Source: Galerina marginata
Lineage: Eukaryota; Basidiomycota; Agaricomycetes; Agaricales; Galerinaceae
Assembly (NCBI GenBank): GCA_023014335.1
Contig: JAECYW010000031.1
Coordinates: 475,087 to 539,086 of the forward strand
DNA: 64,000 nt
Reading direction: 5' to 3'
The notes under the pieces are model-generated. The model was not told the origin of the DNA, did no database searches, and worked only from the letters and a program-made list of their open reading frames with translations. Shown one piece after another: positions 12,894 through 57,723 of this stretch (position 1 is the first letter of the stretch; every line of letters begins with the position of its first letter). Both the position numbers and the translations under genes were made by a program.

Positions 12894-14277
12894 ATGGCCA
12901 CTCCCTACCCCAGAGCCACGAGACGATCCTCCGCCGGACTATCGGTGAGTTCTAGATCTGCATCTTGTTTGAACTTCTTATTCGTACATCGTCGGCTAAT
13001 TTTACAACTACCAAGGCAGCAGCACCAACTACTCCGGAAAGTGACCCTTACCATGACCAGGAAGCCATTGCGAAACTAACCGCTCGCTTCATCACGCATC
13101 TATTCGCCTGCCCCGATTACCCGCCAGCTTCGAGCCTGAGTTATTCTCAAGCAAAGCTACCATACTTCGTAGCGTATGCCCGGCATATAGCAAATCCCAC
13201 CTATCGACCGTCCTTTGTATCCAAGCAGACTAGGTCAGACGAGAAGTCTGTCGAGAAGGAAAACAAGTCAGATCTGAATGGCGGCAACAACTCCGGGCAA
13301 GGCTCGCCTCACGAAGATACAGACGAGAAGCTCGGATTTCCTTGGGATGATGATCACTCGGGTGGCAGCAGTCACGACGAAGGCTCCGATGAACTAAACT
13401 CAGATGACAATCCAGCCAGCCCTTTTTTGCCCAAAAGCCTGGATGTAAGTAAGCCTTCCGCCGACTGCAGATCCTGCAAAGCCGGAGACAAGCAGCCACT
13501 GATCGCCTGCCCCACGCAGGTACGCATGTTCGCCAACGCTCGAAATTTCTCGATACGCGACCCCGCGATCAACAACGCTGGTCGTGATATAACGATACAC
13601 CACCACCACAGCCATTTCTACCAAGAGCCGCAGGTACTGTACATCTTTTTAAGCCACGTTTGACTCTGTGGACGGGTCTTCTTACGGGAGATTGCTTAGG
13701 GGGTTTTGGATTATCAACCTCACTGGTACAGTCTGCTTTCAGTGAGTAAACTTTACTAGCCCCAGAAAGTCACTGTAGCGATTTAACTCTGCCTAGTGGC
13801 GGAACCGGGGATCTACTATGGTAAGTCGAACGATGTTTTACACGCGCTGTAGAATTTGAGCGTTCCTCATAGTTCCACCTCGTCGCCGAAACGATCAAGA
13901 AACTCCTGCCTCTTGGTTTTTCGCCGTCTGTAAGTTTCATTGTCGAGTTACATCTGTCTCGGGATGATACTTAGCTGTCTTCTATACAGTCAGAAATCGA
14001 CTTAAATGTATGTTCATACCCTCTCGATAACATAAGTATCGGCATCTTACTAGCTCGTTTACAGGAGACAGCTGCTGAAGACGTATTTAAATACCCTCGC
14101 TTGCACGGCGTGAAGGTCGTCGAGAGTAAAACGACCATGTGCTTTCCAGGATCCATAATCCAGACGTTGTATGTGATATTCACGTTCTTTTCGCGTGTTT
14201 CCTGTGTCATGTTTCTATCGCCTTTTCGTTTTCAGGTCAAGCATCCGGTATTCCTTCCTCTGATTGAAAGGATATAG
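12894..14277 (+). pseudogene. Cyclin-tail fusion, copy 1, with most of the cyclin box deleted
   Basis: The exon plan matches cyclin copies 2 and 3: 12894-12944, 13016-13444, 13520-13633, then the small tail exons to a TAG at 14275-14277, about 294 residues. The N-terminus is the same (ATRRSSAGLS; FITHLFACPDYPPASSLSY; LPYFVAYARH). It then jumps in frame to TYRPSFVSKQ, losing about 110 residues that hold the cyclin box. The acidic linker and the motif exon (NARNFSIRDPAINNAGRDIT) remain. The tail exons read [25 protein letters not shown], then a 108 nt exon with VFKYPRLHGVKVVESKTTM. A one-base shift follows the stop compared with the longest tails. It could make a box-less protein, but it cannot act as a Pho85-type cyclin. 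Confidence 0.66.
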
Positions 14278-14404
14278 GGCCTCAAATTTCAAACCGTACT
14301 CGCCCGACCAGCACCTCTCAGGCGAGATTGTGATATTTGAACTCCGCGATTGGATGACTTTTATAATGAACCCGGAATGAAATGACGACTCAGACACTGC
14401 TTAA

Positions 14405-14640
14405 TTGAACGGAAAAATCATCAAAAGAGAAGCGGCTGGACCCCTGAAAACACCAAAAACGACGCGACGAAAAGAAAAGAGGGCCGGACCTGAAACATTC
14501 GAAAGCATCCAAAAAACGACAACCAAAAATAGGCTGGACCTTAAACGTCGCAAAACGTCCGTAACCGTAAAAAACAACAAAAGGCACCAAAAACCAAAAC
14601 CAATAAACCAGAAAACAACTCGAAACAAAAGAGGATACTT
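14405..14640 (+). repeat. A-rich 3' flank repeat (tail family)
   Basis: Purine-rich downstream sequence has recurring units of the type GGC(T/C)GGACC(C/T)TGAAA, TTCGAAA-GCATCCAAAA and ACGACGCGACGAAA. The same units follow the tail genes at about 28.0 kb, 31.9 kb and, inverted, 46.4-46.6 kb. It is probably a conserved 3' UTR or terminator region. Confidence 0.5.
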
Positions 14641-14749
14641 TACTGCCCATTGAGATGTAGCCATCAATTCCAGGTTCGAAGGTCTTCGTCATGATCTTTT
14701 CTTTTACTCCTCCGCTCTTCTCTATCACGCATATACCCTGATTTCAATT

Positions 14750-16230
14750 GTCTTTCTCTCTTATACCATCGTCTCAGCCCACTTGGCATTATTCGGCGTA
14801 CTTACAGCAGACAATTTTGTATATAAGTACTCCCAGCAGGACCTCCATCAACATTGATTATTTAACCGCTAAAATCTGGGAATTTGGAAACCTATATTCC
14901 AGGAAACCTGTCCCTGACCATAATCCCAGCCCTCGCCAAACCCGACCACCCCTTTCCCAAATGTAGTATGTTTTCTGGAAAATTACCTTTCCACGTTTCT
15001 CAGGTTTCCGGAAAGCCAAGAAAAACTGGCGCAAGATCGGTGGAAACTGGATACTAAATTGGCCGCCCATTTCTCGAGTCTCTGCAGCCGTTTTTTCACC
15101 ATAAACGACGGAGGAGAGATAATTTTATCTGCTCCTTTCTCAGCCATCCTATACTTATATATATGCAACGTGCCAACTCCCAATAATTTTTACCATTTAT
15201 CATTGAATGAGACAGCGAAGGCTCCCCTCCGACAGTATCGACACGCGTGCTGTCAAAGAGAGGCGGAGCGCCTGTTTATACCGTAAGACAGGAAGCGGGC
15301 GCCGGACGGTGACCTTCGTACTGTTAGAAGGGGAACTAATAACCATGATCCCCGTCTTCGTGCATTTGTGCTAATGTTCGGGGTTGTGGATCGCGATCGC
15401 ATGTTACTATTAGTGGCCGCAGCGCCCTGGCTTTTCTGAAAGGGTTGTGTCACTAGGGTCTTTCACATCAAATGACGGAATAGCTGAAATAGGACTTCTA
15501 AGTTCACCGAGGTCGTGAAGTGGGATGTGCAGGCACGGAGACCTACGAAAATGCATCTTACCCTTGGAACCTGCTTTTTACATGATGCTCGTATGACTTT
15601 TCACCCCCTTTTACGACTCTACGAGATGGCAGCGAATACCTTGTATGTAAGTAGGGTCAATTCAGGTTGATGGGAATCTGAACCGCCTGCAAGGACAACA
15701 CTCTCAACCGAACTTGAATATTCAACATTATCCCCGGATAAGTTGAGCCAGGCTAGGCTGGCTATGCATGCGTTGAACCCCCCATATTGTACTTACGAAA
15801 GGTGAGATCCTACATCCGTAGAACTGATGGCTTCCAGCAGCGTCAATCACTGAAACAGATGGTACGCGACTCACTCCACTGCTTCCAACCCTGCAATTAG
15901 TCGTCCCCCTATTAATAGGGGTTTAACAATACCATGAGCCAGGGCATGAAGTCTAACTTTCTTTTACATTAAGTGGATGGGGCCATTACCTGGTGAGGCT
16001 ATTCGGCCCCTAAAAGTTGGTCGCTAATTTACATCACCCCCATTAGGCAAAAATATCGTGGAATCGCAGCAAATCTGCGACCTCAGCGCAAGACTCAAGA
16101 TAATTTTCGCTGATCAACATTTAAGCTACCGCTGAGACTTAATATCCCGGTACAGGGCCGAGGCTACCACAGCACCTCGATTGGCGCCAGTACTTTATAA
16201 ACTGCTGCGATAAGTCCCCAACCTCTATAC
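14750..16230. other. Intergenic stretch
   Basis: No exon chain or domain was recognised on either strand between the cyclin copy 1 flank and the zinc-finger gene. Only short unrelated open frames occur. Confidence 0.4.
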
Positions 16231-16290
16231 CATCTTGGCACATGTCATCCCTACCGACGTGAATCTTTATTTTTCACTCCTTGCTTCTGT

Positions 16291-17333
16291 TTGTCTCGCT
16301 CACTTTGTCGCTTTTCTAGAAGTACCACTGGCAGTGACGCTGAAGCCCGGAAAGAAGATCGTGAGGCTGACCGCTTCACCTGCGAGAAATACAGTGCGGG
16401 CGTCTCTTTTCGGGACAAACAAACGGGTAAATTTACGGTCAAGCAATGGGGGGTTCAGACGTCGACCTGCTACGTGTACGATCAAATATACCAACTTTCT
16501 TATCCAACACCTGATCTGTTTTGGTTTCAAAATAGTCCTTCAGCCCCTGCCACTGGAAAGCTCATCGTCAACACTCCGGAGAGTGTAGCTGAAGGGCTCT
16601 CACTACCTCCATCCAAGCGTAGGCGGACGAAACGTACAGAGGAGGAGCGCATCAAATACTTTCGTGGAGATCCATATGCCCGGCGATTCGAGGCCTATCA
16701 AGTGCTTTGTGCTTCCTGCGACAAATGGATTCGACTGCGCCAAAATTCGACATACTGCCCAATTCCCTGGGAGATTCATCGAAAAATCTGTCTCGCAAAA
16801 AACATGTGCACATTTCAAAATTTTATGCTCGTTCCGTAATCTGACATTTGTTGCCAGCCACAATAAGAAAATTGGCGCTCTCGAACTTGAAGAGAGGGGC
16901 CTTCTGCCTTCCGAGGACGCCGATGTGCACATGTCCGAACTTGACTCAGAGCAGCTCTCATCGAGCACGAGGGTCAGCATGCCCCCCGGCGAGGAATTCC
17001 ACGAAGGAAAAGAGCCACCTTGTCCCGAAAATGATTGTGAGGGCCGTGACCGGTCAGCTCCTGAAGACGATCCATCTAGCAACGAATGTGACAATGTTGG
17101 TGCTGAGTCCGCTGACCCGAGGGAAGATTCCGAGTCGTCTCCCGAAAATTGTCCAAAGGTAAGCACCCCCGTTGGCCCATATGCTCGGAGTCATCCCTGA
17201 CTGACGAGTACAGGTGCAAATGTTCTCTGAGGCCCATCGTGTATCCATGCGCGAAACAAGCATCACCAATGCGGGAGGAAATATAACGATAATTAACAAC
17301 TACAACTATTTCTACCCAGGCTCGCTGGCAGAG
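16291..17333 (+). CDS. Zinc-finger protein with acidic linker and GGNITI motif exon
   Basis: Exon 16291-16805 encodes a basic segment (SKRRRTKRTEEERIKYF) followed by a C-x2-C ... C ... H-x4-C cluster: LCASCDKWIRLRQNSTYCP and IHRKICLAKN. This is a zinc-binding motif widespread in agaricomycete hypothetical proteins and is likely DNA-binding. After a 52 bp intron, exon 16858-17158 encodes NKKIGALELEERGLLPSEDA and a long acidic, disordered region. Exon 17214-17333 carries the family motif (MFSEAHRVSMRETSITNAGG, then NITIINNYN). Downstream DNA to 17.8 kb matches the 3' part of the DUF2235-WD40 gene (38.7-39.7 kb), but its last exon is decayed, so the true stop is uncertain. The first exon's start is also uncertain because the upstream frame stays open. 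Confidence 0.62.
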
Positions 17334-18100: not shown

Positions 18101-18104
18101 CGCT

Positions 18105-26324: not shown

Positions 26325-27871
26325 ATGTCGACTACTCCCTGCCCAGGAGCCCCGAGACAACCTCCCGCCGGACTCTCAGTGAGTTCTGCATGTTGTTCGA
26401 ACTTCTGGCTCGTGCATCATCAGCTAATTTTACATCTCCCAAGACCGCAGCACCCACTACTCCCGAAAAGGATTCGTATTATGGTCACGAACACTCTGCT
26501 AAACTCGCCGCTCGCTTCATCACGCATCTATTCGCCTGCCCCGATGAACCACCCGCTTCGACCCCGAGTCACTCTCAAGCCAAGCTACCGTTCTTTATCG
26601 CGTACGCTCTGTATCGCACAAAGTTGCACTCCGCCGTGACTTTTACCGCCCTCCTTTTACTCCAACGACTTAAGACGCGCTTCCCATCCGCGCGAGGATC
26701 GTCTGGGCACAGACTGTTCATCTCTGCCTTCATGATTGCGTCCAAGGTTATGTGCGACGACACCTACTCCAACAAATCCTGGTGTATCGTCGCTCAAAAT
26801 ATGTTCAAGCTTCGAGAGATCAACCAAATGGAGCGAGAGATGTGCTCGTATCTCGACTGGGAGCTTTGGGTTGACGGCAGGAGCTTGTCTAACTTCGAAA
26901 AAGCTGTGACGAAAGACTTCGGAGAGGATAAGGACCGGTGGACATATCCTACTTACCCTCCGTCCTTCGTATCGAAGCGAATGAATCTGGATGGCGAGAA
27001 AAACGCCAGGCAAGCCTCTCCTCATGATGATGCAGACGGAGAGCTCGGATTTCCTTGGCGTGAAGAATACTCCGATGTAGATTCAGAGGATATTCTGCCC
27101 GCAAGCATGGATGTGAGTATGTTCTCCAACGCTCGCAACTTCTCGATACGCGACACGGCGATCAACAACGCTGGCGGTGATATAACGATACACCACCATC
27201 ACCACACTCATTTCCACCAAGAGCCGCAGGTACTGTATACCGTTTTCAAGCCGCGTTTGTGCCTGTTTTCTTACTGGAGATCGCTTAGGGCGTTTCGGAC
27301 CGTCAATTCCAGTGGCGCAGTTTGCTTTCGGTGAGTAAACGCTTCTAGTCCCTGAAACGTCGCGGCAACGATCTGACTTTGCTCTTCTCTGATTAGAGCC
27401 CAGGATCTACCGTGGTGAGTACGAAGACTCTTTACCTGGATTGTAGAATTTGAGCGGCCCACTTAGTTCCACCTCGTTGCCGACACAATCAAGAAACTCC
27501 TACCTCTTGGTTTTTCACAGTCGGTGAGTCTCGTTGACGATTTACATCTGTCTGAAGATGATACTTATTTATCTGCCATATAGTCAGAAATAAACTTAAG
27601 CGTACGGTCATGCCTTCTCAATAACGTAGATATCAACAACTTACTGGCCTGATTACAGGAAACAGCTGCTGAAGACGTTTTCAAATACCCTCGTCTGCAC
27701 GGCGTGAGGGTCGTTGAGAGCAAAACGACGATGTGCTTGCCAGGATCCATATTCCAGAAGCTGTACGTGGTATTCACGCTCTGTTCGCCGATCTCCTCTT
27801 TCTCATTCCTGTAACTTTTTTCTTTGTAGGTCGAGCATCCGGTATTCTTTCTACTGATTGGAAGGAAATAG
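26325..27871 (+). CDS. Pho80/PCL-type cyclin fused to motif and conserved tail, copy 2
   Basis: Exons 26325-26378 and 26444-27229 plus six small tail exons encode about 374 residues. Residues about 60-190 form a Pcl1/Pho80-like cyclin box: FFIAYALYRTKLHSAVTFTA, LFISAFMIASKVMCDDTYSN, INQMEREMCSYLDWELWVDG, then FEKAVTKDFG. An acidic linker (GELGFPWREEYSDVDSEDI) follows, then the motif ([20 protein letters not shown] and a run of five His). Next come GVSDRQFQWRSLLS, a microexon [25 protein letters not shown], a microexon SEINLS and ETAAEDVFKYPRLHGVRVVE. The last exon stops early (VEHPVFFLLIGRK). Such cyclins normally activate a Pho85-type kinase. The tail is not part of ordinary PCL cyclins. The intron before the motif exon, present in copies 1 and 3, is absent here. 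Confidence 0.75.
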
Positions 27872-28215: not shown

Positions 28216-28927
28216 GGATATTCTGCCGTCGTCTGAAATGAGTCATCATTCAATTCCGAGGTCTTCATCATGGTCTTTCCTTCTCATCTTCACCTCTTCG
28301 CTTTTGTATCGCACATATACCCTCGCTCAACAGCCTTTATCTCCAACTCGCATCTGTATCATTGTTTCATCCCCGCATTTCATTGCTTAGTGTACTTCTA
28401 GTGTTAGACGCTGCAGTCGATTTCGTACATAATCTCAGTCGCATTTATCTCCCAAATATATATATTTGTATATTTCTCTTAGCAATTGGACAAGGTGGGC
28501 AATGATCATGCCTCAGGCAGGAGTCCACAGGCGGCAGGACGGATCGAAGATATCCATCAGTGGCTGTGCCGTCCGAGTGTAGACGATTGCGGGAACATTG
28601 ACCAATCAATCTTGCTTTAGCCTTCGACGCGACAGCGAACGATCTGCTCGACGCGACTTCCAGCTAGCCCACGACTGTCCAGGGTAGGTCTAATTTCCCG
28701 TCCAAACGGAAGGCAGCTATCTAAGCTATCTAGATATCTAAGGCTTACCTGGACACAGCCAAATTCCAATAACTTTGAGGGCTCGAATGGGACCTGCATA
28801 GCCATTACCTGACATTGTCACCGTTTAAATCTTAGTGGCTGTTCGAAGAGCGGCTTGGCGATTTCCCGTTCCTCCTCAGTACTCAGTCTGCAACTCTTCC
28901 TCTTTTCTTCTCCCATTCCACGAGACA

Positions 28928-31840
28928 ATGGAGGTCTCTCCTCCTAAACAGCAGACAGTGACCACAACGACCACTTCTACTGGCCTACCCTTTTCCTCTC
29001 CACCCACAAACTCACCTGCCGGTGCTAGCTCTGATCAGCATTCTACTGCGAACTTCGCCAGGTCAGCCCTGCTTGAGGCCTGTCGCGATACTGAGCTCCT
29101 GCTCATTGAGCGTGAACACTGGGCCAGGAAATGCGCAGAAGATGCAGAGCGCATCCAGCAAGCCCTCGCTTTCACGGAGACTCAGACTGCGCCGATCCCC
29201 ACATCGGTATCACCTCCTTTTTTGCATAGCAAGACTTTTGGCGGAGACGGGGGCACGACCATTTCCAATGCCCCCAAGGAATACAGTATACTCGTCAAGG
29301 ATTTAGCACCTGAAACTTCCAATTCAGACCTGTTCGCTGTCTTCCGTAATCCACTGCTCGGACTCCGGAGCCCCCAATACCCCAAGGTTATCCGCCCGTT
29401 CCTAAGCTGCAAAAGCGCAAAGATCGTGCTAGATCCCGCGACAGGCATTTCTCGAGGCTATGGGTTCGTCCGGTAAGTCAATAGTAAGCTTGTCTCGTAC
29501 ATCGGCTCTGTTACAAACTTTTCTCGTTAGTTTCACCGATGAAGCGGACCAACAGCGGGCAATGGTGGAAATGAATGGCGTCTATTGCCTCTCGCGACCC
29601 AGTAAGGTTACCGTTGTTATTATAATGCGCAAGTAATCACCCCTTTTTTTTTTGAAATAGTGCGCATTTCACCCACAGCTATCGCCCGGACTCCGCATTT
29701 GAAGCAGGGCTTGATTCAAGAATCGAGTCCCAACAACTCTGGCCTGTTTTCCGCATCTGTTGGTATCTTAGTCGTTTCGTTCTTCCTTTCTTCTCCCCTA
29801 ACTTGTCAGTCGCATTATTTACACAGAGCAGACGGCCATCACTTGAGCCCTTGAAAGTTGTGGCTGGCGATGGCGACATTCAGCCACTTTCACTATCTCA
29901 CAGCATTGCCCGCAAAACTCCCGAATCGGTTAGCAACGCCTCACTGGACCGTGGTACTGCTACAGGCTCCGAGTCCGGGAGTGTTAAAAAATGCACAAAT
30001 TGCGGAGTCACTAGCACCCCGCTCTGGAGGCGGGGCTTGAACGACGAGCTGACATGCAACGCCTGCGGGCTGTACTGCAAACTGGTGCGTATCTATATTT
30101 TCACTCTACACGGATGAAGCTTGATTCTCTGGAATTCTTTATCATCTCGTTGTTATTTACTTTACAAACCGGAACAGCACAAACGACCTCGACCACGACC
30201 TCCCCAGAGGATTGTGCCGCTGCAACTGTCTCCCGACGAAAGCCCGAAACCTGAGGTCGGTTTCCCTTTTTGCCTTTGTTACGAAAGAGTACAGCCTCAC
30301 TCTTATTGGCTCGCCCATTCAGTGCACGATTTGCCATACAACGTCCACGCCGCTGTGGAGGAAAGATCACGAAGGCGAAAGAGTTTGCAATGCGTATGTC
30401 ACCCTTTGACTCACCATTGACGCTTTTTTTGCTTATCCTATTGTAGCTGTGGTATATACGAGAAACTCCGTGGCCCAGGCTCGGCTCGTTCCACTGGGAC
30501 TGCGCTAAAACCAAGTCTTATTCGGAGTCGTAGTCATTCAAGCACCAGAGAAGGCTCTTGTCTTGCTGGCGCTGGCCAAGAGGACACGACGTCAGCCAGT
30601 TCTAGACGTGAGATGCGCATCCCTAGCCATCTTGCTTCCACCAGTCTCGCTCCAGATTCGGCAACCAAGACACCCTCTAGCTTCCTAGAAAAGGGTGAGT
30701 TGTATTTACCTAACTCTCTCGTTTTAAGTGCTCATCCGGCTTTGGCGCAATGTCATGTCTTCCATGATTCTAGACAACCCTTATTATCAATTCTCCGACA
30801 ATGAACATGCTGATGAAGAGCCGTCCGAATTTCCTTGGGAGGAAGATTCAGATGCAAGTTTGGAGAGTAGTGAGAACGACGCCTGGGACGACTCGGAGTT
30901 CGATGAGGATCCAGGCGACCCGTTTCCGACCAAAAATATGGATGTAAGTCGTACAATCTAGACCATGGATCTTTCTTTATGCCCGTAAAATGCAATCACT
31001 GAACGTCAAATACAGGTCCGAATGTTCTCTAATGCTCGCAATGTTTCGATACGCGACACTGCGATCAACAATGTCGGAGGTGATATGACCATACACCACA
31101 ATCATTTTTACCAAGAACCACAGGTATAGTGTGCTTTCGTCACGTTGCAAATGAACTGCGCGACTAACCATTGGCTTGGACTATCAGGGCTTCCGCGATT
31201 ATTTACCCCAGTGGTCCAGTTTGCTTTCGGTGATTATTACTTACCATCTATTATCCCGCTTTAAACGTTCTGATATAACTCGGTCGCGAGCAGTGGTCAA
31301 GCCCTGGATCCAGCATGGTGAGTATGGTGACAAATTGCTTCGGTCATTGTGCTTAAGTCTTCCTTGTAGTTCCACTTCGCCGCTGAAACAATTAAGAAGC
31401 TCTTACCCCTTGGTTTATCGCCATCGGTAAGCGTCATCTATGGATTACAATCGCCAGACGCTAATTATTTATGCCTACGATATAGTCAGAAATCAACTTG
31501 AATGTACGTTCATTTTCTCTCAATTGCCCTATCATATAAATGACATGATTCCGATTTCCAGAAGACAGCAGCTGATGACGTCTTCAAGTACCCGCCCTTG
31601 CATGGCGTAAAGGTCATCGAGAGCAAAACGACCATGTGCCTGCCAGGATTCATAATGCAAACACTGTATGTGCTTTGCCTCTCTGTTCTATTGACTCATC
31701 GGTGACCCAGTCTGATTCTGTAGGTCGAGCATCCGGTATTCCTTCTATTGAAGGAAAACTGGATCTCGAAACGCACCGACAAGCGTCTATCAGGCAGGAT
31801 TATGGCAGGGGAACCCCGCGATTGGATGATCCTTATATGA
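28928..31840 (+). CDS. RRM plus double GATA-finger protein with motif and tail, copy A
   Basis: Fifteen exons join without a break into about 670 residues. Residues 1-110: Ser/Thr-rich leader and a short coiled coil. About 115-205: one RNA-recognition motif ([51 protein letters not shown]), closest by eye to Nam8/Csx1-type RRMs. Then two GATA zinc fingers: [15 protein letters not shown] with CNACGLYC, and [15 protein letters not shown] with VCNACGIYEKL. An acidic linker ([20 protein letters not shown]) leads to the motif exon 31016-31123 and tail exons [44 protein letters not shown] and [20 protein letters not shown], with stop at 31838-31840. GATA fingers bind (A/T)GATA(A/G) DNA, so a nuclear regulatory role is likely. 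Fusion with an RRM is unusual. Confidence 0.78.
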
Positions 31841-42641: not shown

Positions 42642-45600
42642 TCAGTTACCGTGTTTTCCTATTTTTTCTATTTTTATAATCTGAGGTCCGCTTTCCGATT
42701 CATTTCCCCGCCTATTTTGTGGATTTTCCTTTCCATATATGCTGCATCCGAGATAGTCAGCCAATTGTGCTTTCAAAGTGTCGCAGAGAACCGCAATACA
42801 TCCAATCGCGGGGTTCCCTGCCGTAATCCTGCCTGATAGACGCTGGTCGATGCGCTTCGAGATCCTATTCTCCTTCAATAGAAGGAATACCGGATGCTCG
42901 ACCTACAGGTTCAGGCTGGGTTAATGAGCAAATAAAACAGGGAGGAAAAGGACATACAGTGTCTGCATTATGAATCCTGGCAGGCACATGGTCGTTTTGC
43001 TCTCGATGACCCTTACGCCATGCAAGGGCGGATACTTGAAGACGTCATCAGCAGCTGTCTTCTGGAAATTGGAATAATGTCATTTATATGATGGGGCCAT
43101 TGAGAGAAAATGAACGTACATTCAAGTTGATTTCTGACTATATCGTAGGCATAAATAATTAGCCTCTGACGATCGTAATTCATTGATCACACTTACCGAT
43201 GGCGAAAAACCAAGGGGTAGGAGCTTCTTAATTGTTTCGGCAGCGAAGTGGAACTACAAGGAAGACTTAAGTACAATGACCGAAGCAGTTTATCATCGTA
43301 CTCACCATGCTGGACCCAGGGTTCGACCACTGCTCGAGACCGAGTTATATTAGAACATTTAAAGCGGGTTAATAGATAGTAAGTAATAATCACCGAAAGC
43401 AAACTGGACCACTGGGGTAAATAATCGGTGAAGCCCTAATAGTCCAAGTCAATCGTTAATTGGGCAGTTCACTTACAATGTGACGAGAGCACACTATACC
43501 TGTGGTTCTTGGTAAAAATGATTGTGGTGTATCGTCATATCACCTCCAACGTTGTTGATCGCAGTGTCGCGTATCGATACATTGCGAGCATTAGAGAACA
43601 TTCGGACCTGTATTTGACGTTCAGTAACTGAATTTATCCGAGCCTCCAGAAAGAACCGTGGTCTACATTCGGCGACTTACATCCATATTTTTGGTCGGAA
43701 ACCCGTCGCCTAGATCCTCATCGAACTCCGAGTCGTCCCAGGCATCCTTCTCACTACTCTCCAGATTTGAATCTGAATCTTCCTCCCAAGGAAATTCGGA
43801 GGGCTCTTCATCGGTATGTTCACTGTCGGAGAATTGATAATGAGGGTTGTCTAGAATTATGAAAAACATAACATTTCGCCAAAGCCAGATCAGATCTCAA
43901 AATGAGAGAGTTAGGCAAATATAGTACAACTCACCCTTTTTAAGGAAGCCAGAGGGTGTCTTGACTGGCGAATCTGGAGCGAGACTGGTGGAAGCAAGAT
44001 GGCCAGGGATGCGAATATCACGTCTAGAACTGGCTGACGTCGTGTCCTGTTGGCCAGCGCCAGCAGGACAAGATCCTTCTCTGGTGCTTGAACGTCTACG
44101 GCTCCGAATGAGACCTGGCTCTATAGCAGTCCCAGTGGAACGAGCCGAGCCAGGGCCACAGACTTTCTCGTATAAACCACAGCTACAAGAGTATAAGCAA
44201 AAGGGCGCCAGCGGTTAGGCAAATTGGATATTATAAGAAAGGGAATCGCATACGCATTGCAAACTCTTTTGCCTTCGTGATCTTTCCTCCACAGCGGCGT
44301 TGACGTTGTATGGCAGATCGTGCACTGTGAATGGAGGATTCAATAAGACTCGGGCTGTCTTTTTTGTAACAAAGAGAAACCAACCGTGGGTTTCGGGGTT
44401 TCGTCAAGAGAAACTTGCAGCCGCACATTCCTCTGGGGAGGTCGAGGTCGAGGTCGTTTGTGCTGTTCCGGTTTAAAAAGTAAATAACAACGAGATGATA
44501 AAGAATTTCAGAAAATCAAGCTTCATCCGTGCAGAATGGAAATATAGATACGCACCACTTTGCAGTACAGCCCACAGGTGTTGCATGTCAGCTCGTCGGT
44601 CAAGCCCCGCCTCCAGAGCGGGGTGCTGGTTACTCCGCAATTTGCGCATTTTTTAACAGTCCTTGACCCGGACTCGGGGCCAGCAGTGCCATGGTCCATT
44701 GACGCGTTGCTAACCGATTCGGGAGTTTTGCGGGCAATGCTGTGAGACAGTGAATGTGGCTGAATGTCGCCATCGCCAGTCATAACTTTCAGGGGCTCAA
44801 GCGATGGGCGTCTGCTCTGTGAGAAGAATACAATTGACAAGTTAGGGGCAATGACTGGGAGAACGAAACGATTAAAATACAGAGGTGTTGGGGCTTAACT
44901 CGCGATTCGATCCCTGCTTCAAGTACGGGGTCCGGGAGATAGCTGTGGATGAAATGCGCACTATTTGGAAAAGAGTTAATTATATACGCATTATAATAAC
45001 AATAGAAATCTTACTGGCTCGCGAGAGGCAATAGACGCCATGCATCTCCACCATCGCACGTTGTTGGTCCTTTCTATCAGCGAAACTAGCCATAGAGGTC
45101 AGTAGTAGAGCCGATGTACGAGCCTATCGACTCACCGGACAAACCCATGACCTCGAGAAAGGCCAGTCACTGGATCTAGTATTACCTTCGCGCTTATGCA
45201 GCTCAGGAACGGACGGATAAAATTGGCGTCTTGGGCGTTCCGGAGTCCAAGCACTGGGTTACAGAAGACAGCGAACAGGTCCGAGTTGGAGGTTTCAGGT
45301 GCTAAATCCCTGACGAGTATACTGTATTCCTTGGGGGCATTGGAAATAGTTGTGCCCCCGTCTCTGCCAAAAGTCTTGCCTTGCAAAAAAGGAGGTGCTA
45401 CCGATGTAGGGATCGGCGCAGTCTGAGTCTCCGCAAAAGCGAGGACTTGCTGGATGCGCTCTGCCTCTTTTGCGCGTTTCCTGGCCTGCTCGAGCTCGAT
45501 GCGCATGTGCTCAGTATCGCGATAGGCCTTCTCAAGTAGGGCTGACAGGTTGAGGTTCGCAGTAGATCGGTAATCAGAGCTAGCATCAGCAGGTGAGTTT

Positions 45601-45680
45601 GCGGGTGGAGAGGGAAGGGGTGGTCCAGTAGAAATGGTCGTTGTGGTCACCGTCTGCTGTCTAGGAGGAGAGACCTCCAT
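42642..45680 (-). CDS. RRM plus double GATA-finger protein with motif and tail, copy B
   Basis: Inverted paralogue of copy A with the same fifteen-exon plan. It keeps the RRM ([29 protein letters not shown] is HGVYCLSRA here), first GATA finger ([23 protein letters not shown]), second finger ([15 protein letters not shown]), acidic linker ([20 protein letters not shown]), motif exon 43500-43607 ([20 protein letters not shown]) and tail exons. A one-base deletion near 42815 (ggcagggaacc against ggcaggggaacc) shifts the final residues. The protein then continues to a stop at 42642 instead of ending at the conserved position. The intron before the last exon uses gtcctt instead of gtgctt. It may be expressed with an altered C-terminus. 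Confidence 0.72.
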
Positions 45681-46359
45681 TGTCTCGTGGAATGGGAAAG
45701 GACGAAAAGCCGCAGACTGGAGAAGAACGGGAAATCGTCAAGCCGCTCTTCGAACAGCCACTGAGATTTAAACGTTGACAATGACAGGGAAGGCTATGCA
45801 TACTCGACTCGGAGCGCTCAAAATTATTGGAATTTGGCTGTGTTCAGGTAAGCCTTAGATAGGTCCCTTCCGTTGACCTACCCTGGGCAGTCGTGGGCTA
45901 GCTGGAAGTCGCGTCGAGCAGATCGTTCGCTGTCGCGTCGAAGGCTAAGGCAAGTTCATTGATTGGTCAACCTAACCGCAATCGTCTATATTCGGACGGC
46001 ACAGCCACTGATGGATATCTTCGATCCGTCTCTGCATTACAAACCCCAGCCTGAGGCATTATCATTGCCCACCTTGTCCAATCGCGAAGAGAAATATACA
46101 AATATATATATTCAGTGGATAAATGAGACTGAGATTAAGTATGAAATTGACTGTAGCTGTCTAACACTAGAAGTACACTAAGCAATGAAATGCGGGGATG
46201 AAACAATGATACAGATGCGAGTTAGAGATAAAGACTGTTGAGCGAGGGTATATGTGCGGTACAAAAGCGAAGAGGTGAAGATGAGAGGGGGAGAGAAAAT
46301 GAGACCACGATGAAGACCTCGGAATTGAATGACGACATTTCAAACGACGGCAGAATATC

Positions 46360-46600: not shown

Positions 46601-46715
46601 GCCGTGTCCGGGTGAAAGCCATTTCATTCCGGGTTCATATCAAGGTCATCTAACCGAGGGTGTCCGTTGCCATAATCCTGCCGGTGAGGTGCTGATCCAT
46701 GTACTTTTCGAGGCC

Positions 46716-48344
46716 CTATATTCTTCCAATCAGTAGAAGGAATACCGGATGCTCGACCTACAAACGAAAAAGCGACAGAAATAAGAAAGAGGAGATTGGA
46801 GAACAGAGCGTGAATACCATATATGGCTTCTGGATTATGGATCCTGGCAAGCACATCGTCGTTTTGCTCTCAACGACCCTCACGCCCTGCAGACGAGGGT
46901 ATTTGAAAACGTCTTCAGCAGCTGTTTCCTGTAAGCGGGCCAGTAAGTTGTTGATACCTATATTATCGAGAAGGCATGGCCGTACGCTTAAGTTTATTTC
47001 TGACTATATGGCAGATAAATAAGTATCATCTTCAGACAGATGTAAATCGACAATAAGACTCACCGACTGTGAAAAACCAAGAGGGAGGAGTTTCTTGATT
47101 GTGTCGGCAACGAGGTGAAACTAAGGGGAACGCTCGAATTTAACAATCCAGGTCAAAAGTCTTTATACTCACCATGGTAGATCCTGGGCTCTAATCACAG
47201 AAGAGCGAAGTCAGATCGTTGTCGCGACGTTTAAGGGCCTAGAAGAGTTTACTCACCGAAAGCAAACTGCGCCACTGGAATTGATGGTCCGAAACGCCCT
47301 AAGCAATCTCCTGTAAGAAGACACGCCCACAAACGAGGCTTGAAAAACATGTACAGTACCTGCGACTCTCGGTGGAAATGAGTGTGGTGATGGTGGTGTA
47401 TCGTTATATCACCGCCAGCGTTGTTGATCGCCGTGTCGCGTATCGAAACATTGCAAGCGTTGGAGAACATGCGTACCTGTGCGGGACGGTCAGCGGCTGC
47501 TTGTTCCTAGTCTGTAGAAAGGACAATGATCTGGAGTCAGCAGAAGGCTTACTCACATCCATGCTTCTGGGCAGAAGATCCTTTAAATCTACATCGGAGT
47601 ACTCTTCACGCCAAGGAAATCCGAGCTCTCCGTCTGCATCTTCATGAGGAGAGGCTTGCCTGGCGGTTTTCTCGCCATCCAGATTCATTCGTTTTGATAC
47701 GAAGGATGGAGGGTAAGTAGGATATGTCCACCGGTCCTTATCCTCTCCGAAGTCTTTCGTCACAGCTTTTTCGAAGTTAGACAAGCTCCTGCCGTCGACC
47801 CAAAGCTCCCAGTCGAGATACGAGCACATCTCTCGCTCCATTTGATTGATCTCTCGCAGCTTGAACATGTTTTGAGCGACGATACACCAAGATTTGTTGG
47901 AGTAGGTGTCGTCGCACACGACTTTGGACGCGATCATGAAGGCAGAGATGAACAGTCTGTGCCCAGACGATCCTCGCGCGGATGGGAAGCGCGCCTTAAG
48001 TCGTTGGAGTAAAAGGAGGGCGGTAAAAGTGACGGCGGAGTGCAACTTTGTGCGATACAAAGTATACGCGATAAAGAATGGCAGTTTGGCTTGAGAGTGA
48101 CTCGGGCTCGAAGCGGGCGGTTCCTCGGGGCAGGCGAATAGATGCGTGATGAAGCGAGCGGCGAGTCTCGCAGTGTGTTCGTGTCCATGATAAGAATCCG
48201 TTTCGGGAGTAGTGGGTGCTGCGGCCTTGGGAGATGTAAAATTAGCTGATTATATACGAGCCAGAAGTTCGAACAAGGTGCAGAACTCACTGAGAGTCCG
48301 GCGGGAGGTTGTCTCGGGGCTCCTGGGCAGGGAGTAGTCGACAT
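46716..48344 (-). CDS. Pho80/PCL-type cyclin fused to motif and conserved tail, copy 3
   Basis: Inverted paralogue of copy 2, about 374 residues. First exon 48291-48344 (STTPCPGAPRQPPAGLS). The cyclin box is almost identical to copy 2 (LFISAFMIASKVVCDDTYSN; INQMEREMCSYLDWELWVDG). The acidic linker ends SMDV, the intron before the motif exon is kept, and motif exon 47360-47476 reads [20 protein letters not shown] with five His. The tail exons read GVSDHQFQWRSLLS, SPGSTM, a 19-residue [13 protein letters not shown] exon, a SEINLS-type microexon and VFKYPRLHGVRVVESKTTM. The last exon stops early ([13 protein letters not shown]). The role is presumably binding a Pho85/Cdk5-type kinase, with the tail adding an unknown interaction surface. 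Confidence 0.74.
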
Positions 48345-49370: not shown

Positions 49371-49376
49371 CCCCGG

Positions 49377-49925: not shown

Positions 49926-50019
49926 GATGGTCATGCTTGGTACTGCCTGGTAATTTTCTTGTGGCCACAACGTCATCCAAGCACACACAAAACCCCCTCC
50001 TCCTACTGTAGGCCAAGCG

Positions 50020-50365: not shown

Positions 50366-50842
50366 CTTTGTTTTCGTTGAGCTTTGCTGCTTTTGGCGTG
50401 CTTTGCTGACGGTATTTGTGGTTTATTAGATTCAGCGGATGAGAGTGGCGGATTAAGATGACCGTATCTTTGCGGTGTATTGACACAAACAGTGGGATCC
50501 CCGCTATCAAATTAATGATCCCAGTGCTCAACTCGTCACCTCCGAACCTCGTCAATTAAAGACACGCAGATTTGATTGATTTGCCTTTCGCCCTTGGTGG
50601 CTGGGGTAAATATAGTTTCCAGGCAAGTGCACAGCGCCATCGATTGTTCATTCAAACTACATAGATAACTTAGTCACGATGTGATCCAAATTTAACTAAC
50701 CTACCAAACGCATACCTCGAATTGCAGTGTTCAGAGTTGGCAAGCATGGACAGCCTCATTGACAAGCCATAGATAAGTACAGCATGTTCGCCGCTCACTC
50801 TGAAATTCCTTCCCACCACCGTCCTCGGACATTTACTTTGGA
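50366..50842. other. Intergenic stretch upstream of the NLR
   Basis: No gene was identified. It lies between ATG18 fragment 3 and the NLR leader peptide. Confidence 0.35.
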
Positions 50843-53175
50843 ATGAACCCAATGTTGTCGTCCCATAATCTGTTGGTCACTGGAGGGACCTTTACGCAGA
50901 TTAATGATGTCAGGCAGATCCACCCCAGTCAAGGCGAGTAAGGGCTGCTTGCTGAACTTTCTAGCTGATCGAAATCAATAGCGAGCCTTGACCTTTTGAC
51001 GAAGGCAGTCTCCCCTTCTGCGTTCCATAACTCAGGGGAACGTCGTGACCCGCCCAAGTGCTTTCCGAACACGAGGGTTGCGATCCTAAAGAAACTCAAG
51101 GATTGGATTCTCGGCCTCGACCCGATGACAAGAAGTGCTCTCATTAAGTGGTTGCATGGACCCGCAGGATCAGGGAAGTCAGCTATTGCGCAGACCCTTG
51201 CGGACTGGGCGTTCGAGGAGGAAATCTTACTTGCCAGTTATTTTTTTTCAAGGTTCGACTCGACGCGAAATCATCCCCGGTCACTGATCGCCACCATTGC
51301 CTATCAGGCAGGATCTCTTGGTCGTAAAGTTAGGGAAAGCATTGTGGCAGCCATAGACGCCGAGCCTCTCATATTCACCCTGTCCCTCATGGCGCAGATC
51401 CGCTCTCTCATCGTTGAGCCACTCGATTCACTTATTACGTCTGGATATTTTGAGGACCCCAGGTCCAAGCGCCTCATTATCATCGACGGGCTCGATGAAT
51501 GCATTGACCCCGATTGGCAAATAGATATCATCCGCACGATATCAAAAGCACTGCAAGACCACCACCTGCCGCTAATCTTCCTAATCACTAGTCGTCCTGA
51601 GCACGATATAACCTTTTCTTTTGGCTCAGGCTACTTGACGGAAGTGACATCTCGCTTCCCCCTGGACGACACATACGAGTCGTCATCGGATATTGAGCTC
51701 TTCCTCCGAAGTCAATTTAACGAAATCAAAGAAAACCATCCATTCAAAATGCAGCTGGTAGGGTGGCCTGGTCAGCAAACGCTGGAAAAAACTCGTTACC
51801 AATTCGTCGGGTCAATTCATTTACGCAGCCACCGTTACAAAGTTCGTGAGATCTACTCGACATAAACCGGCTGATAGATTGGAAATGGTTCTCGGTCTAC
51901 GCCCCCCAGTAGGAGATCACGATTTGCCATTCTCTGACCTAGATGCACTTTACCACCATGTATTCGCCGGGGTCCAGAACATTGAGCTGGTATTGAAGGT
52001 TTTAAGTTTTTATCTACTCACAAGAGATCATCATTTCGTTCCTGGCGTGAACTACATGGAGCACAAGCTTTCCTTGCACACAGGAGACATCAACACATCT
52101 TTCTGCGACCTCCATGCAGTCATTGACCTTCAGGGTGGCTCCGAGTTCCGCCTGCATCACGCATCGCTCGAAGACTTTTTTCTTGACAAATCACGCTCCA
52201 AGTCATTGTACATCGACCCGCCAAACCGGCATGCTGAATTTGCACGAGCGATGTTTCAATTTTTCCCAAGTAAGTGCATGATGTGCATCGCACTATCCCG
52301 CGTCATCGGACCAATGTTCGATTTATTGTCTGACAAGTTTCTCAGATATTGTATCGGATCGGGACATATATGTTTGCGCTCGCCACCTTGATAGAGCTTC
52401 ACCAAGCGAAGAGCTACGACAAGACATTCTAAACCTTGACAGTTTTGGAGTCTTTCGTTTTCGCAAATCCGATGGGTACGAATCCGCGTACTCAAATCTA
52501 GAACTCCTTTGGAATTCCATCAAACGTTCTGTTCGTATACGTGGTTTTAATTTGGCTAACCCAACTAATTCTTTATTCCTATTAGCAACTTTCAGATGCC
52601 ATTGAGCTCTGCTTACGCCATACCCGACCGATGGACAAGCATGCCGCCGGCCAGTTAAAAGCTTACTACTCAGATAAACGACTGATAGCCCTCCTTTCCG
52701 TCTCATACATAGTCTTTACCGACACAGGCTACGCGTACCCGGACATTTGGTACACCATGTGCAACGAATTGTTCCAACTTGACGAACAATTGACCTCCAT
52801 TGACCTTCGCCGCTATCAACTTTCCAGGGGCCAAAAATGGTACAGCCAAGAATTCACGACGATTTTAAAACACCATTTTAAAGACAAAAGAAACCTTGAA
52901 GCTTGCCATGCGGATGGTGCCATATATTTTTTCATTATATACAACATCACTTGGTCCCAAGTTTCCTGAAGCATCAAAAAATTGAAGACCTGGTAGTGTA
53001 TAGCCTGCATTTGCTGGACAGGCTTCTCCGGAAAGCAGGAAGGTCTGAACGGCTAATTACCTTGGCTCGACGATGCAACTTTGGGATGTTTTCAGCTGCT
53101 TTCCCGATCGAAATAGCACGCGCGAGGAAGAGAATTGCAGAGTACCTCGGAAGGATGGACTCATCCGGCAGATAA
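50843..53175 (+). CDS. NACHT-domain NLR protein with short N-terminal motif
   Basis: The leader exon (from ATG 50843) encodes SSHNLLVTGGTFTQIND. After an intron ending at 50981, the main exon reads KAVSPSAFHNSGERRDPPKC. The NACHT NTPase follows: Walker A WLHGPAGSGKSAIAQTLADW, Walker B RLIIIDGLDECID and sensor LIFLITSRPEHD. Further exons (to 52269, 52346-52530, 52586 on) give VFAGVQNIELVLKVLSFYLL, HHASLEDFFLDKSRSKSLYI and a C-terminus near IARARKRIAEYLGR. This is the standard agaricomycete NACHT layout and acts as a nucleotide-driven switch. Problems: the splice phase between leader and NACHT exon is unresolved, an extra A in a six-A run near 51790 shifts the frame (LEK then LVTNSSGQFIYAATVTKFV in the next frame), and the last join (about 52920-52975) is unclear. 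No repeat sensor domain was seen. Confidence 0.75.
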
Positions 53176-53279
53176 AAGTACCTGGAGTAATTTGTCAATC
53201 AATTACCTTAAAACTATTGAAAACGGACCCTGAGTTGGGATATGAGTACTATGAACGTCGAACGACCGAACCAGTATAA

Positions 53280-54188
53280 CACCGGAGGCTTTTATTTAAC
53301 GGGAATATAGCTGATATAAAAAGGTGAAGAGATCAAGCCACTAAGGACTGCTTACTTTAAAGTGGTGCCTAACTCGACACAGCTGATAACCTAGTCTTTG
53401 ACTATTTTTGTTCTGTTCCGGATTGTTTGATTTTTTTTCGGCGACCAGTCCGGGGCCGTATTCCCTGCTTGGCGTTCTCAACATGAGAAACCGCACACCC
53501 ACTGACGGGATCCAGTTTAACTTATCTGCAGGCAGCATGATAAAGTCCTCCGACCAATGCGAGATTGATGGAAATCCGTCCCAAAAGTTGCAATTTGGGC
53601 GACAGGAAAGTGTTAAACCCAAACGACATGGCTCAGTACGTAGGTGTTACAAGCTTGATCTCGGTTTGAATGTTCGAGACAAAGACTCCAAATAATGGAC
53701 GATGGGCTTACTGCTGTGAAATTCGATCGTATAACAAGATAGTATACTTTAGTGATACACAAATAGGTAAATTTGAAAATGTAAAAGCAGGCAACGGAGA
53801 AAGCGTTCATAGTAAAATCAAACCCGAGCTGCGGAGCAAAGAGCCATTCGAAACCTATTTTTGGATTTCCTATTTTTCCATTCTTTTTTGAAGGTTGGTT
53901 TTAATTGTTTTTGTCCTTTTCCGTGTTTCGTCGTTCGGTAGCCCTTTTTTTTTGTAATATTTCCACTTTCATTGGTACCAACGGAGGAGGAACATCCAGA
54001 ACGGCCCATACCGATCCCGACGTCCCCCAGGTGTGGCGTGACGCACCACCCTCTCGGACCCTCAGAGTTGAAGTTAACTCTTTCGGGCCACGAGCTCAAT
54101 CAACCGCGAAGTTATACCAAATGTGCATTGAGGCAGAGCGCGGTTTCGTATCGTGTCCAAAAGGCCACCATTTCGAAACCGTGCACGC
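53280..54188. other. Intergenic stretch with T-rich block
   Basis: No gene was found. The T-rich block at about 53850-53960 (ttttgtccttttccgtgtttcgtcgttcggta) is repeated at about 55810-55930 and lies downstream of the small tail genes, like the A-rich 3' flanks elsewhere. Confidence 0.4.
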
Positions 54189-55199
54189 CTAAACCAATTT
54201 CCCGGTGTGTCCAAGGTAAGTCTTCCAAGATCCTGCCCAGATGCGGGCAAGATTGAAGTTGCCTAGTCGCAGAAGAACGCGTATCGAACACTTGACCTAG
54301 AGGGAAAACAGGCGAGATGTAAGCCAAAACTTCACAATGAAGACATGGAAGAGAAGATATAGAAGGTAGCACGCACAACAACTGGTTTACGATTCCGTCC
54401 TTGAACAGGGAGGTTTTACTCAGAAGTACAGGAACATTGAATAAAGGCGGATATTTGAGGGCGTCGTTTGCGATCTTCTCCTGGATTGGTGGTGCAATGT
54501 AAGTAAGTGCAAACCGATGGCCCTCTAGAGCGAGAATAAGCGTACATTCAGATTTATGTCGGGCTATTTTGTGTAAATTTGATGTTAATATGTAATGAAT
54601 AGACTTGCCTAACACAACTTACCGAGAACGAAAATGGACAGGATAGGAAACCCTTGACATTCTCGGCAGCGTGAGCCTACCGTACACAGATTATACTCAG
54701 TGATAAACCGAGTTAAAGATGCCAGTCCTTACTATCTTTGATTTTAGATTCTGGGTAGACATTGTGTTAGATCACGCCTGGTGTTGAATAAGGGCTAACT
54801 CACTGAAAATGGTTTGGCCAATTGGTCCCAAGTTGACACCTATTGTTCCGAGTTAGCCATGAGACATACGCCGCGCAGCTGCAGGGAGATTTGTACCGGC
54901 TCCGAGTCGAACTCTGGGTGAAAAAAGACGTTGTAATTGTGGTTGATCGTCAAATCACCTCCAACGTTGTTGATTTCTGTGTCTCGTATTGATACGTCAT
55001 GGGCCGACGAGAACATCTCGACCTGGATGTGGTATTCAGAGGCTAATCTGGGGGATAAGCTTAGGAGGGCTAATTTACTACTGACATTCCGTGCCAGTGG
55101 AGCTTGTGTATCGTAACGACTGATGGCGCATGGTAGGATATGAGTCTTAGGACGGAGCCCACTTGGTGGCCCGGGCAGGAGAGATGTTAAAGACAACAT
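54189..55199 (-). CDS. Small tail-family protein with short orphan leader (about 193 aa)
   Basis: Eight short exons join cleanly. A 38-residue leader (MLSLTSLLPGPPSGLRPKTH ...) comes first. Motif exon 54897-55022 reads MFSSAHDVSIRDTEINNVGG, then DLTINHNYNVFFHPEFDSEP. After it come VSTWDQLAKPFS, a microexon NLKSKI, AHAAENVKGFLSCPFSFS, a microexon PDINLN, a 108 nt exon with ANDALKYPPLFNVPVLLSKT and a last exon VKCSIRVLLRLGNFNLARIW. Exon number, lengths (18 nt microexons, 108 nt exon) and conserved spots (I-N-L-N; K-Y-P; L/E-S-K-T) match the tails of the cyclin and RRM-GATA genes despite low identity. This is the shortest complete member and may show the tail as an independent protein. Function unknown. 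Confidence 0.62.
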
Positions 55200-55211
55200 T
55201 CTGCTCCGAAG

Positions 55212-55400
55212 TGGGAGAGTGAGGGAGAAGAGTGAGGGGCCCTTTCAAGAGTGGCGATGCAGACAAGCGGTCATCTGGACACAGCATGCAGCCTTGAGGC
55301 AATCGAAATGAAATGAATGCGTCAACAGAAATATATGTAGAGGTCTACATGTATTTGTCACGAACAGCACCCCAAAGTCGACTGTCCGGTACCCCAAAAC
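55212..55400 (-). promoter_or_regulatory. Conserved promoter of tail family, copy at 55 kb
   Basis: Upstream of the small tail gene, the minus strand has GTAGACCTCTACATATATTT with GTTGACGC, then the GCATGCTGTGTCCAGATGACC region and a pyrimidine run. Equivalent copies are at 57.8-58.0, 58.2-58.4 and, on plus, 11.96-12.12 kb. Confidence 0.5.
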
Positions 55401-56139
55401 CGACCAGATTTCTCACATTGCACAGCCACTGATAAGATCCAGTTTATCTAATCTACGGTCAGCTCGGCGAAGATGCCAGCACCACACCGAGTGCCATTCT
55501 GCTTTTGTCCTTTCCGTGGTTTTCTCGGTTACGATTGTTATGATTTTATATCTACGTCTACAAGAGACTTAGTCTTCTAAAAAGATAACATCGATAGACC
55601 GAAGTTAAATGAGTTGCTAGTACCGGGTGCATCAAAAACCTCATGGGAAAAGCTACCGGTCTGCAGGTGGAAATGTATGTACGCAAATGGGCTCGTAGTC
55701 CAACAAGTCCTGAGCTTGAGGGCAGCGCCCCCCTTTTTTGTATTGTTTTCGATACCGTCAATGGAGTAAATTAGAAAAGTTAAGCCTGACCCTTCCGGGT
55801 CTGAGCTGACCCACGCCTATTTTTTTCTTCCGGAATTTTTAATTTTGTACTGTTTTTGGTGGATGTTTATTTTGTTTTTGTTATTCTCCGTGTTTCGTTG
55901 TTCGGTTGCCCCCTATTTTTTGCGTTGTTTTGGTTTTAATTGATTTGTCGTTGGAGGAAAATCAGAGAGGTTAAGCCTGACAATTCCGCGTCTGAGGAGG
56001 GTTCAGTGCCTTTCGGATACACTCCTTTACAAGTTTGAATTCATCCTTACCTAAAGCAATCTCTGGATGTTCCCAGAAATCATACTCGGGGGGTCACAGT
56101 GGAACACATATCGGGGAAAGACAGAGGAGACTTAAACCA
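55401..56139. other. Intergenic stretch with T-rich 3' flank
   Basis: No gene. The T-rich block around 55815-55945 (ctccgtgtttcgttgttcggttgcccc) resembles the one at 53.9 kb and is probably the 3' flank of the next small tail gene on the minus strand. Confidence 0.4.
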
Positions 56140-57723
56140 ACTAGGACATGATGAGGGCAGGAGATTTAGAGAATAGTACGCACACTATCGTCATTACTCC
56201 GTTTATGACCAGGGAGGTTTTACTCAGAAGGACCGGAACATAGGGTAAAGGCGGGTATTTGAGGGCGTCTTCTGCGATCCTCTCCTTGACTGGTGGCTGT
56301 TCAACGTAAATATGCAATAAATAAACTCTGCTAACACTACTGACCACAAACGAAAAGGGACTGGATAGGAAACTCTTAACATTCTCGGCTGCATGAGACT
56401 ACCATACACCAAGAGTGCTCAGTAATTAGAACTGAGTTAGAGATACCAGTCCTTACTATATTTGATTTTAGATCCTGTGTAGACATCGTGTTAGATCACG
56501 CCCGGGATTAAACGGTAAATCATGACCAGCTCACTGAAAATGGCTTGGCGAATTGTTCCCAAGTTGACCGCTATCGTTTCAAGTTAGAAATGAGGCTATA
56601 CATCGCTTATCTGAAGGGATGTTTGTACCGGCTCGGGGTCTGGCTGGATGTAGATATTATGATTGTCATCATGTTTAGGGTTAAATGACGACTAGCTCAC
56701 CAAAGACGGTTTGGCGCTCTCACCCCAAGTTGGTGCCTAGTTCCAAGTTAGCTAAGTGACATAGATAGGGTAAGCTGAAGGGAGGTTTGTACCGGCTCGA
56801 TATCTTGCTGAACGTAGGCATTATAATTGTGATCTTGATTGGGTTTAAATGCCGACTAGCTCACCGAAAATGCTTTGTCGCATATATCCATAAATGATAG
56901 CTATCGTTCCAAGTTAGCTACGAAGACATACATCGCGTAACTGAATGTCGACGAGCTTACCCATTCGTCCGAAATTGATGACTATCGTTCCAAGTTAGCT
57001 ATGAGGACGTGCATTGCGTAGCTGATGGGAGGGTTTTACGGATTTTACCAGCGAATCGTCTGGCTGAACGCGAACATTATAATTCTGATCATATTGAGGG
57101 ACAAATGACGACTAGCTCACCAAAAAAAAGGCTGGATTCACGCCAAGTTGATTCATATTGTTCCAAGTTAGCTATGGGACATACATGGGTAGCTGAAGGG
57201 AAGTTTGTGCCCACCTGCCATCTGGTTGAACGCAAGTCATTATAATTTGGGTCAAATGACCAGGAAACTTTGGCGCATTCATCACGAATTGTTAACTACC
57301 ATCCATGTTCAAGATTTATGAGGGCATACAATAAACGCGTGAAGGTCCTTCGATAAAGAAGAATTAGTGCCGAGAAAGCAAAAATAGTCAGTGTCGTACC
57401 TGGCGGCTGAAGGATGAAGAAATCAATATAATTGTTTATCGTCAAGTCGCCTCCGACATTGTTAATTTCTGTGTCCCGAATTGATACGTTACTGGCCTCG
57501 GAGAACATCTGGGCCTGTATGTGGATTGAGCGGATCTGAGACACAGACACAAGCGGACTTGCCGATTGATGTATCACACTTCCACTAGTACCGCTCTCCG
57601 CGTCCCATGGCTGCAGGACTCTTCGTTATGCGTAATACTAATAGGGCATACAGAAGAACCACCCGCGTCGCCGCCCTCATTGTCGGTTTTTCGTCCCTGA
57701 GACGGGATATCGATTGTGTCCAT
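56140..57723 (-). pseudogene. Small tail-family gene expanded by internal tandem repeats
   Basis: Starts MDTIDIPSQGRKTDNEGGDA. Motif exon 57400-57514 reads MFSEASNVSIRDTEINNVGG, then DLTINNYIDFF. Instead of the single following exon seen in the 55 kb copy, a tandem array (56525-57262) intervenes. Tail exons then resume: SHAAENVKSFLSSPFSF, and ERIAEDALKYPPLPYVPVLL with SKTSLVINGVMTIVC. The microexon and its intron before ERIAED have been lost, and I find no intact last exon, so the gene is probably damaged. Confidence 0.52.
56525..57262 (-). repeat. Tandem array of about five units of about 160 bp
   Basis: Repeated landmarks on the plus strand are (t)agctcacc(g/a)aaaa at about 56526, 56694, 56858, 56954 (agcttaccc) and 57113; ttccaagttagcta; gaaggga(g/a)gtttgtaccggctcg; and attataattgtgatc. 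Units run from about 95 to 170 bp. Each unit corresponds to the end of the motif exon, the following intron and the next small exon of the family. The array therefore arose by repeated duplication of an intragenic exon-intron-exon segment. Confidence 0.7.

Follow-up and report, generated by a model that had tools for sequence, protein, structure and literature searches.

The DNA analysed here (the window) is a stretch of 64,000 nucleotides from the mushroom Galerina marginata (assembly GCA_023014335.1, contig JAECYW010000031.1), in which nine exons encode one short motif. This motif exon opens a longer C-terminal tail, which is a real, constrained and reused module and more substantial than first described. 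Front parts of other genes run in frame into the tail, four kinds of them with relatives elsewhere in the genome, and both the tail and the cyclin box of one partner are under selection. We tentatively propose, at slightly less than even confidence, that the genes are chimeras made by duplication in which the tail serves as a common binding or assembly tag. The signalling role proposed for the motif is weaker than at first look.

All nine motif exons (exon A of the tail) encode the motif at the places and on the strands claimed in the preliminary description (9/9), and every copy carries an ATG near its 5' end:

13520-13633, + strand: copy 13520 (NAGRD variant); ATG at 13526
17214-17333, + strand: copy 17214; ATG at 17220; 3' end predicted, no exon B found
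27113-27229, + strand: copy 27114; ATG at 27119
31016-31123, + strand: copy 31016; ATG at 31022
38633-38755, + strand: copy 38633; ATG at 38639; 3' end predicted, no exon B found
43500-43607, - strand: copy 43607 (inverted duplicate of 31016); ATG at 43601
47360-47476, - strand: copy 47476 (inverted duplicate of 27114); ATG at 47470
54897-55022, - strand: copy 55022; ATG at 55016; no upstream partner gene recognised
57401-57514, - strand: copy 57514 (bare leader); ATG at 57508; 3' end provisional, no phase-0 donor found

The preliminary description regarded this as one motif exon attached to unrelated proteins. The in-frame joins to unrelated partners bear this out, but the shared unit is a multi-exon tail of which the motif is only the first exon; the motif exon as the sole shared part was rejected, since exon B and several small exons travel along with it. 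The tail comprises six or seven exons and ~135 residues, ~95 of them downstream of the motif exon, and was fully modelled in 7 of 10 loci (six window copies and one on contig C2), with the end of the last exon trimmed by hand. In copy 31016, the order is motif exon A, small exons, exon B and last exon; the C2 model lacks the FHFAAET exon. All 41 predicted tail introns are GT-AG introns in phase 0 of 51-76 nucleotides, and every internal exon is a multiple of three. Endings such as ...YARSHP* were rejected as protein C-termini, because they arise by readthrough into the intron after GTAAGC. The remaining parts of the tail are as follows:

13700-13741, 13797-13820, 13873-13929, 13990-14007, 14065-14172 and 14236-14274, + strand: remaining tail exons, copy 13520
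27289-27868, + strand: remaining tail exons, copy 27114
31188-31762, + strand: remaining tail exons, copy 31016; the last exon may extend to a stop further down
42864-43435, - strand: remaining tail exons, copy 43607
46719-47298, - strand: remaining tail exons, copy 47476
54373-54839, - strand: remaining tail exons, copy 55022, up to exon B
56144-56299, - strand: open frame with exon B, copy 57514

Exon B is present at 7 of 9 window copies and at C2 and at no other place among the scored candidates (E ≤ 10), and its matches always lay beside motif exons (14/14 in one search, 13/13 in another). A PDB search with one tail gave 15 matches, all to transporters (best E 0.72), while Pfam searches with two tails returned nothing for one and a single sub-threshold phage family for the other; neither of two tails tested matched NACHT.

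The assembly measures 69.3 Mb in 43 contigs, the window being part of contig C25. A motif search of it (E ≤ 10, with only the best candidates scored, so that remote copies may be missed) gave 18 matches: nine in the window, eight on C23 and one on C2. The C23 matches lie inside a stretch at the end of that contig that is 99.65% identical to the window and are not independent; reading them as independent alleles was rejected, as 7 of 12 compared stretches are identical and the remainder differ mainly by single-base indels. Counting the nine window copies and C2, there are at least ten distinct tail loci among the best candidates. The motif of copy 43607 is identical to that of 31016, so nine distinct motifs were scored, and a large inverted duplication relates 26.3-31.8 kb to 42.8-48.4 kb. 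The tenth copy (locus L025, on C2) has a WW-like partner, and a NACHT match (C2:1965008-1965526) lies ~7 kb away.

Five kinds of front part precede the tail: a Pcl-type cyclin, an RRM+GATA protein, a Tle1-like hydrolase-WD40 protein, a Zn-finger-like protein and, on C2, the WW-like protein. Those in the window are:

12956-13444, + strand: cyclin N-part and acidic linker, copy 13520; most of the cyclin box missing; donor at 13445
16201-17158, + strand: Zn-finger-like protein and acidic linker; donor GTAAGC at 17159
26390-27112, + strand: Pcl-type cyclin part and acidic linker, copy 27114; start codon provisional
28829-30943, + strand: RRM + GATA chimera with acidic linker exon; donor at 30944
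33184-36601, + strand: Tle1-like (PF09994) hydrolase + WD40 propeller gene; donor GTAAGC at 36602
43681-45737, - strand: RRM + GATA chimera, second copy, with acidic linker exon
47557-48249, - strand: Pcl-type cyclin part and acidic linker, copy 47476; start codon provisional

The partner assignments of the preliminary description fared unevenly. Its PCL cyclin matches PF00134 (E 8.3e-12), though in copy 13520 the cyclin box is largely missing (only query residues 1-75 of 241 are matched); of its two GATA fingers beside an RRM, one is complete and the second reads CNAY for CNAC in both copies. Both parts of its DUF2235-WD40 hydrolase were matched, the family now being named PF09994 T6SS_Tle1-like_cat in Pfam, which we take to be equivalent to DUF2235. 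The tested pieces of its "zinc finger" partner had no Pfam match. Relatives of the partners occur on other contigs: the cyclin on C9 (78% over residues 14-199), with a broken relative on C21; the N-piece of RRM-GATA in a C13 gene and its RRM in a C1 gene; the Zn-finger-like protein on C20 (78%); and the C2 partner on C39 (73%), its presumed WW-like nature resting in part on a Pfam WW match below the cut-off. No tail was detected near the relatives on C9, C1, C13, C20 and C39, which cover four of the five partner kinds (all but WD40). Since relatives of four partner kinds exist elsewhere without a detected tail, the tail-bearing genes look like chimeras made by duplication.

The joins themselves are consistent with splicing from partner to tail. 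In copies 13520, 47476, 31016, 43607, 17214 and C2, an acceptor lies immediately 5' of the motif exon and a phase-0 donor 55-80 nucleotides upstream in the partner frame, whereas copy 27114 has no intron body and its cyclin frame reads directly into the motif as an in-frame fusion. All three cyclin frames stay open as far as the motif exon or its intron. An acidic exon ends the partner part in the cyclin, GATA, Zn-finger, WD40 and C2 genes, and the WD40 and Zn-finger genes have a donor context in common (GTAAGC at 36602 and 17159). Upstream of the 38633 exon, a terminal-inverted-repeat transposon (36649-38619, + strand, 1,971 bp) splits the intron that follows the WD40 gene; its 60-nucleotide inverted ends are identical at 47 of 60 positions, with a putative TGAC target duplication, related sequences occur on C8 and C11, and its flanks match the uninterrupted Zn-finger intron.

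Codon comparisons indicate that the tail is coding and under purifying selection. The preliminary description had set its motif against the case of no selection, with a ratio of nonsynonymous to synonymous rates (dN/dS) near 1; in this genome, the ratio for the tail was 0.11-0.37 in 14 of 15 window pairs and undefined in the remaining one, so that this refuting case does not hold here. Cyclin-type and GATA-type tails differed from one another by dN 0.13-0.15 and dS 0.78-1.10, giving dN/dS 0.12-0.18 in all six pairs, and the other four pairs among these five tails gave 0.11-0.37 (31016/43607, 0.11; 27114/47476, 0.37). Ratios for pairs involving 55022 or C2 were 0.15-0.44, most dS values being close to saturation, and one was undefined. 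Third codon positions held the most changes (e.g., 19/16/53). For exon A alone, a ratio was obtained for 37 of 45 pairs, 32 of which lay at 0.06-0.35, one at 0 and four at 0.45-0.56. The contrast between tail and introns is clear despite the choice of tail exon models for open frames, a slight bias to low dN/dS that counts against our reading, because intron identity is 42-48% in the six cyclin × GATA tail pairs.

Constraint extends to some of the partners. Between copies 27114 and 47476, the cyclin part has a dN/dS of 0.21 (17 nonsynonymous, 22 synonymous changes), which indicates constraint after fusion, while its linker showed no constraint, though on small numbers (nonsynonymous to synonymous, 7 to 1). 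Within the RRM-GATA chimera, the ratio was 0.33 for the RRM, 0.42 for GATA, 0.39 for the linker and 0.98 for the N-piece. Two constrained domains on a loose linker would have the look expected of a working fusion, at least for the cyclin.

These patterns could be explained if DNA-level duplication had joined the ~135-residue tail to the fronts of at least five gene kinds, giving proteins in the order partner, acidic linker, motif, tail. The flexible acidic linker would keep partner and tail apart, and the tail may bring different partners to the same contact or location; self-assembly via the motif and coupling to NOD-like receptors (NLRs) are possible refinements. Several observations weigh against this proposal. 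Splicing in vivo, expression and the contact itself are inferred. Signs of decay include the transposon that now interrupts the WD40-motif junction, the failure to find exon B at copies 17214 and 38633 when it was looked for there, and the lack of a phase-0 donor after the motif exon of copy 57514, where exon B is present and the tail may be altered. No partner was recognised for copies 55022 and 57514, the cyclin of copy 13520 is damaged, a stop codon lies just before the cyclin frame of copy 47476, the cyclin start codons are provisional in all three copies, and the RRM-GATA N-piece looks unconstrained.

Because the motif opens a larger tail and the partners duplicate genes only in part, the clustering of copies is explained by duplication without a "tagging system". 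A chimeric-gene hotspot lacking any common function, in which segmental duplication fused various fronts to an ordinary C-terminal domain and most copies are decaying, would account for the large inverted duplication, the damaged or interrupted copies and the near-neutral cyclin-side linker and GATA N-piece; we consider it unlikely, if far from negligible, as tail and cyclin box are still constrained. Alternatively, the conserved ATG of the motif exon could be the start codon of a stand-alone small gene with the upstream genes as mere neighbours, consistent with its presence in all copies, with the ATG at which most of the NLR motif exons read also start, and with the two copies that have no recognised partner. 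This seems rather improbable given the acceptor before the exon, the upstream phase-0 donors, the stop-free cyclin frames and the fusion at 27114. A mobile element of Helitron or Pack type, bearing the tail and capturing the fronts of host genes, would fit the several unrelated gene pieces at one locus and the combination of C13- and C1-related pieces in RRM-GATA, but this reading is very improbable: the transposon found sits within a single intron rather than at the borders of the units, although there was no search aimed at unit ends.

A further explanation is amyloid-type NLR signalling, in which the motif would be a beta-arch relative of NLR motifs and an activated NLR would nucleate tail-bearing effectors or decoys. 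The window contains one such receptor gene, a neighbour outside the tail family:

50804-52391, + strand: NACHT NLR with its own N-terminal motif exon MLSSHNLLVTGGTFTQIND

The motif of this gene is similar in length to the tail motif, with an unclear match. C23 lacks one base of this gene (at 51786) and has a frame of 473 residues versus 298 here, probably through an assembly indel. A NACHT search of the assembly gave 87 scored matches, duplicated contigs included, and all 15 stretches read upstream of NACHT matches held an NLR-type motif exon, as did the motif-search finds. From these, 21 NLR motifs were chosen by eye (the 15 upstream stretches, the window NLR and five motif-search finds). The 21-exon profile includes L058, L061 and L062, reverse-strand NLRs with a motif, which the 18-exon profile omits, and the 16-exon profile has no motif-search finds except the window's own NLR; L059, the C23 duplicate of L060, is in none of them.

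Some of these comparisons favor kinship. The NLR first exon MFRNSRNFRINGGTFNN resembles a tail motif by eye, NLR first exons of this sort having the pattern MFxNxRNxxI in common with the tail, and a search with one motif string hit tail loci as well as an NLR first exon on C1. With the 18-exon profile, motif frames took ranks 2, 3, 4, 6, 9, 11 and 13 of 1,687, and 0-1 of 300 shuffles scored as well for four of the nine distinct motifs, 2 and 4 for two and 17-137 for three; the 16-exon profile gave ranks 2, 4, 5 and 14, with 0-3 shuffles as good for four motifs and 6-124 for five. With all 21 NLR exons, however, the resemblance was mostly gone: only ranks 8 and 14 among the best 16 of 1,687 were motif frames, and 4-189 of 300 shuffles were as good over all nine motifs (3-196 when either control is counted). 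Single shuffles beat every tail motif in all three runs (up to 12.4 bits with the 18-exon profile). The NLR exons L064 and L067 have an apparent phase-1 end and GG, where the tail exon ends in phase 0 and has RD, and tail motifs follow other domains rather than holding the N-terminal position of NLR motifs. Likeness to two published PUASM peptides, EQB50682/EQB50683 from PMC9815663, compared without gaps, is weak and mostly at chance level (14-36 of 2,000 shuffles as good in 4 of 18 comparisons, 65-950 in the other 14). The resemblance to NLR first exons of the same genome thus does not appear robust, and we treat the relation as unproved and the NLR explanation as doubtful. Its fullest form, in which the tail is the missing effector half of mushroom amyloid-type NLR signalling and one assembly recruits cyclin, GATA/RRM, WW and Tle1-like lipase, is quite improbable. 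If true, NLR-nucleated assembly would tie immune recognition to the cell cycle, transcription and membrane attack, and fusion of more gene fronts with the tail could add new outputs.

The duplicated tail offers a compact natural case in which a single C-terminal module, still under constraint, recurs behind several gene fronts of unrelated kinds. Other features of the window include pieces of a PROPPIN (Atg18-type) gene repeated near tail copies (18.2-18.9, 39.8-41.0 and 49.4-50.5 kb), a direct repeat of ~2 kb (2362-4510 and ~19.9-22.1 kb; spacing ~17.5 kb, ~76% alike), and a caspase-like Peptidase_C14 domain at 6555-7358. A fungal tRNA ligase gene (PF09511, PF08302) lies at 58389-62609, and a stretch ~80% identical to it occurs beyond the window near C23:4105083-4109337.

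The closest published comparison is with the N-terminal amyloid-like motifs NLR05/08/22/29/44 of Agaricomycete NLRs (Wojciechowski et al. 2022, PMC9815663). These motifs are like the tail motif in being short and hydrophobically patterned, with a G[DN] pair mentioned in the paper's text for one Gymnopus set; a link to the NLR05/22 group is tentative, following that text rather than the paper's profiles. Unlike them, the tail motif is internal, follows partner domains, precedes a conserved tail and has RD for GG. According to that paper (PMC9815663), effector-side motifs seem to be rarer in Basidiomycota. The tail would supply candidates of this kind if its motif couples to NLRs. A profile built from NLR exons of this genome also scores some of the tail motifs, though not robustly.

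Fungal effector proteins with C-terminal amyloid motifs (HeLo, PNP_UDP/PUASM) likewise carry the motif C-terminal to another domain and have an NLR nearby. Here, by contrast, the motif comes after a cyclin, transcription regulators or a Tle1-like hydrolase, and another ~95 residues lie beyond the motif exon. Chimeric genes from segmental duplication are a general kind, in which a common back part is similarly joined to fronts that have relatives on other contigs, and the present genes combine partner relatives without a detected tail (four of five kinds tested) with constraint on the shared part. Unlike the usual chimeras of this kind, they reuse one back part with five kinds of front and have kept it under constraint.

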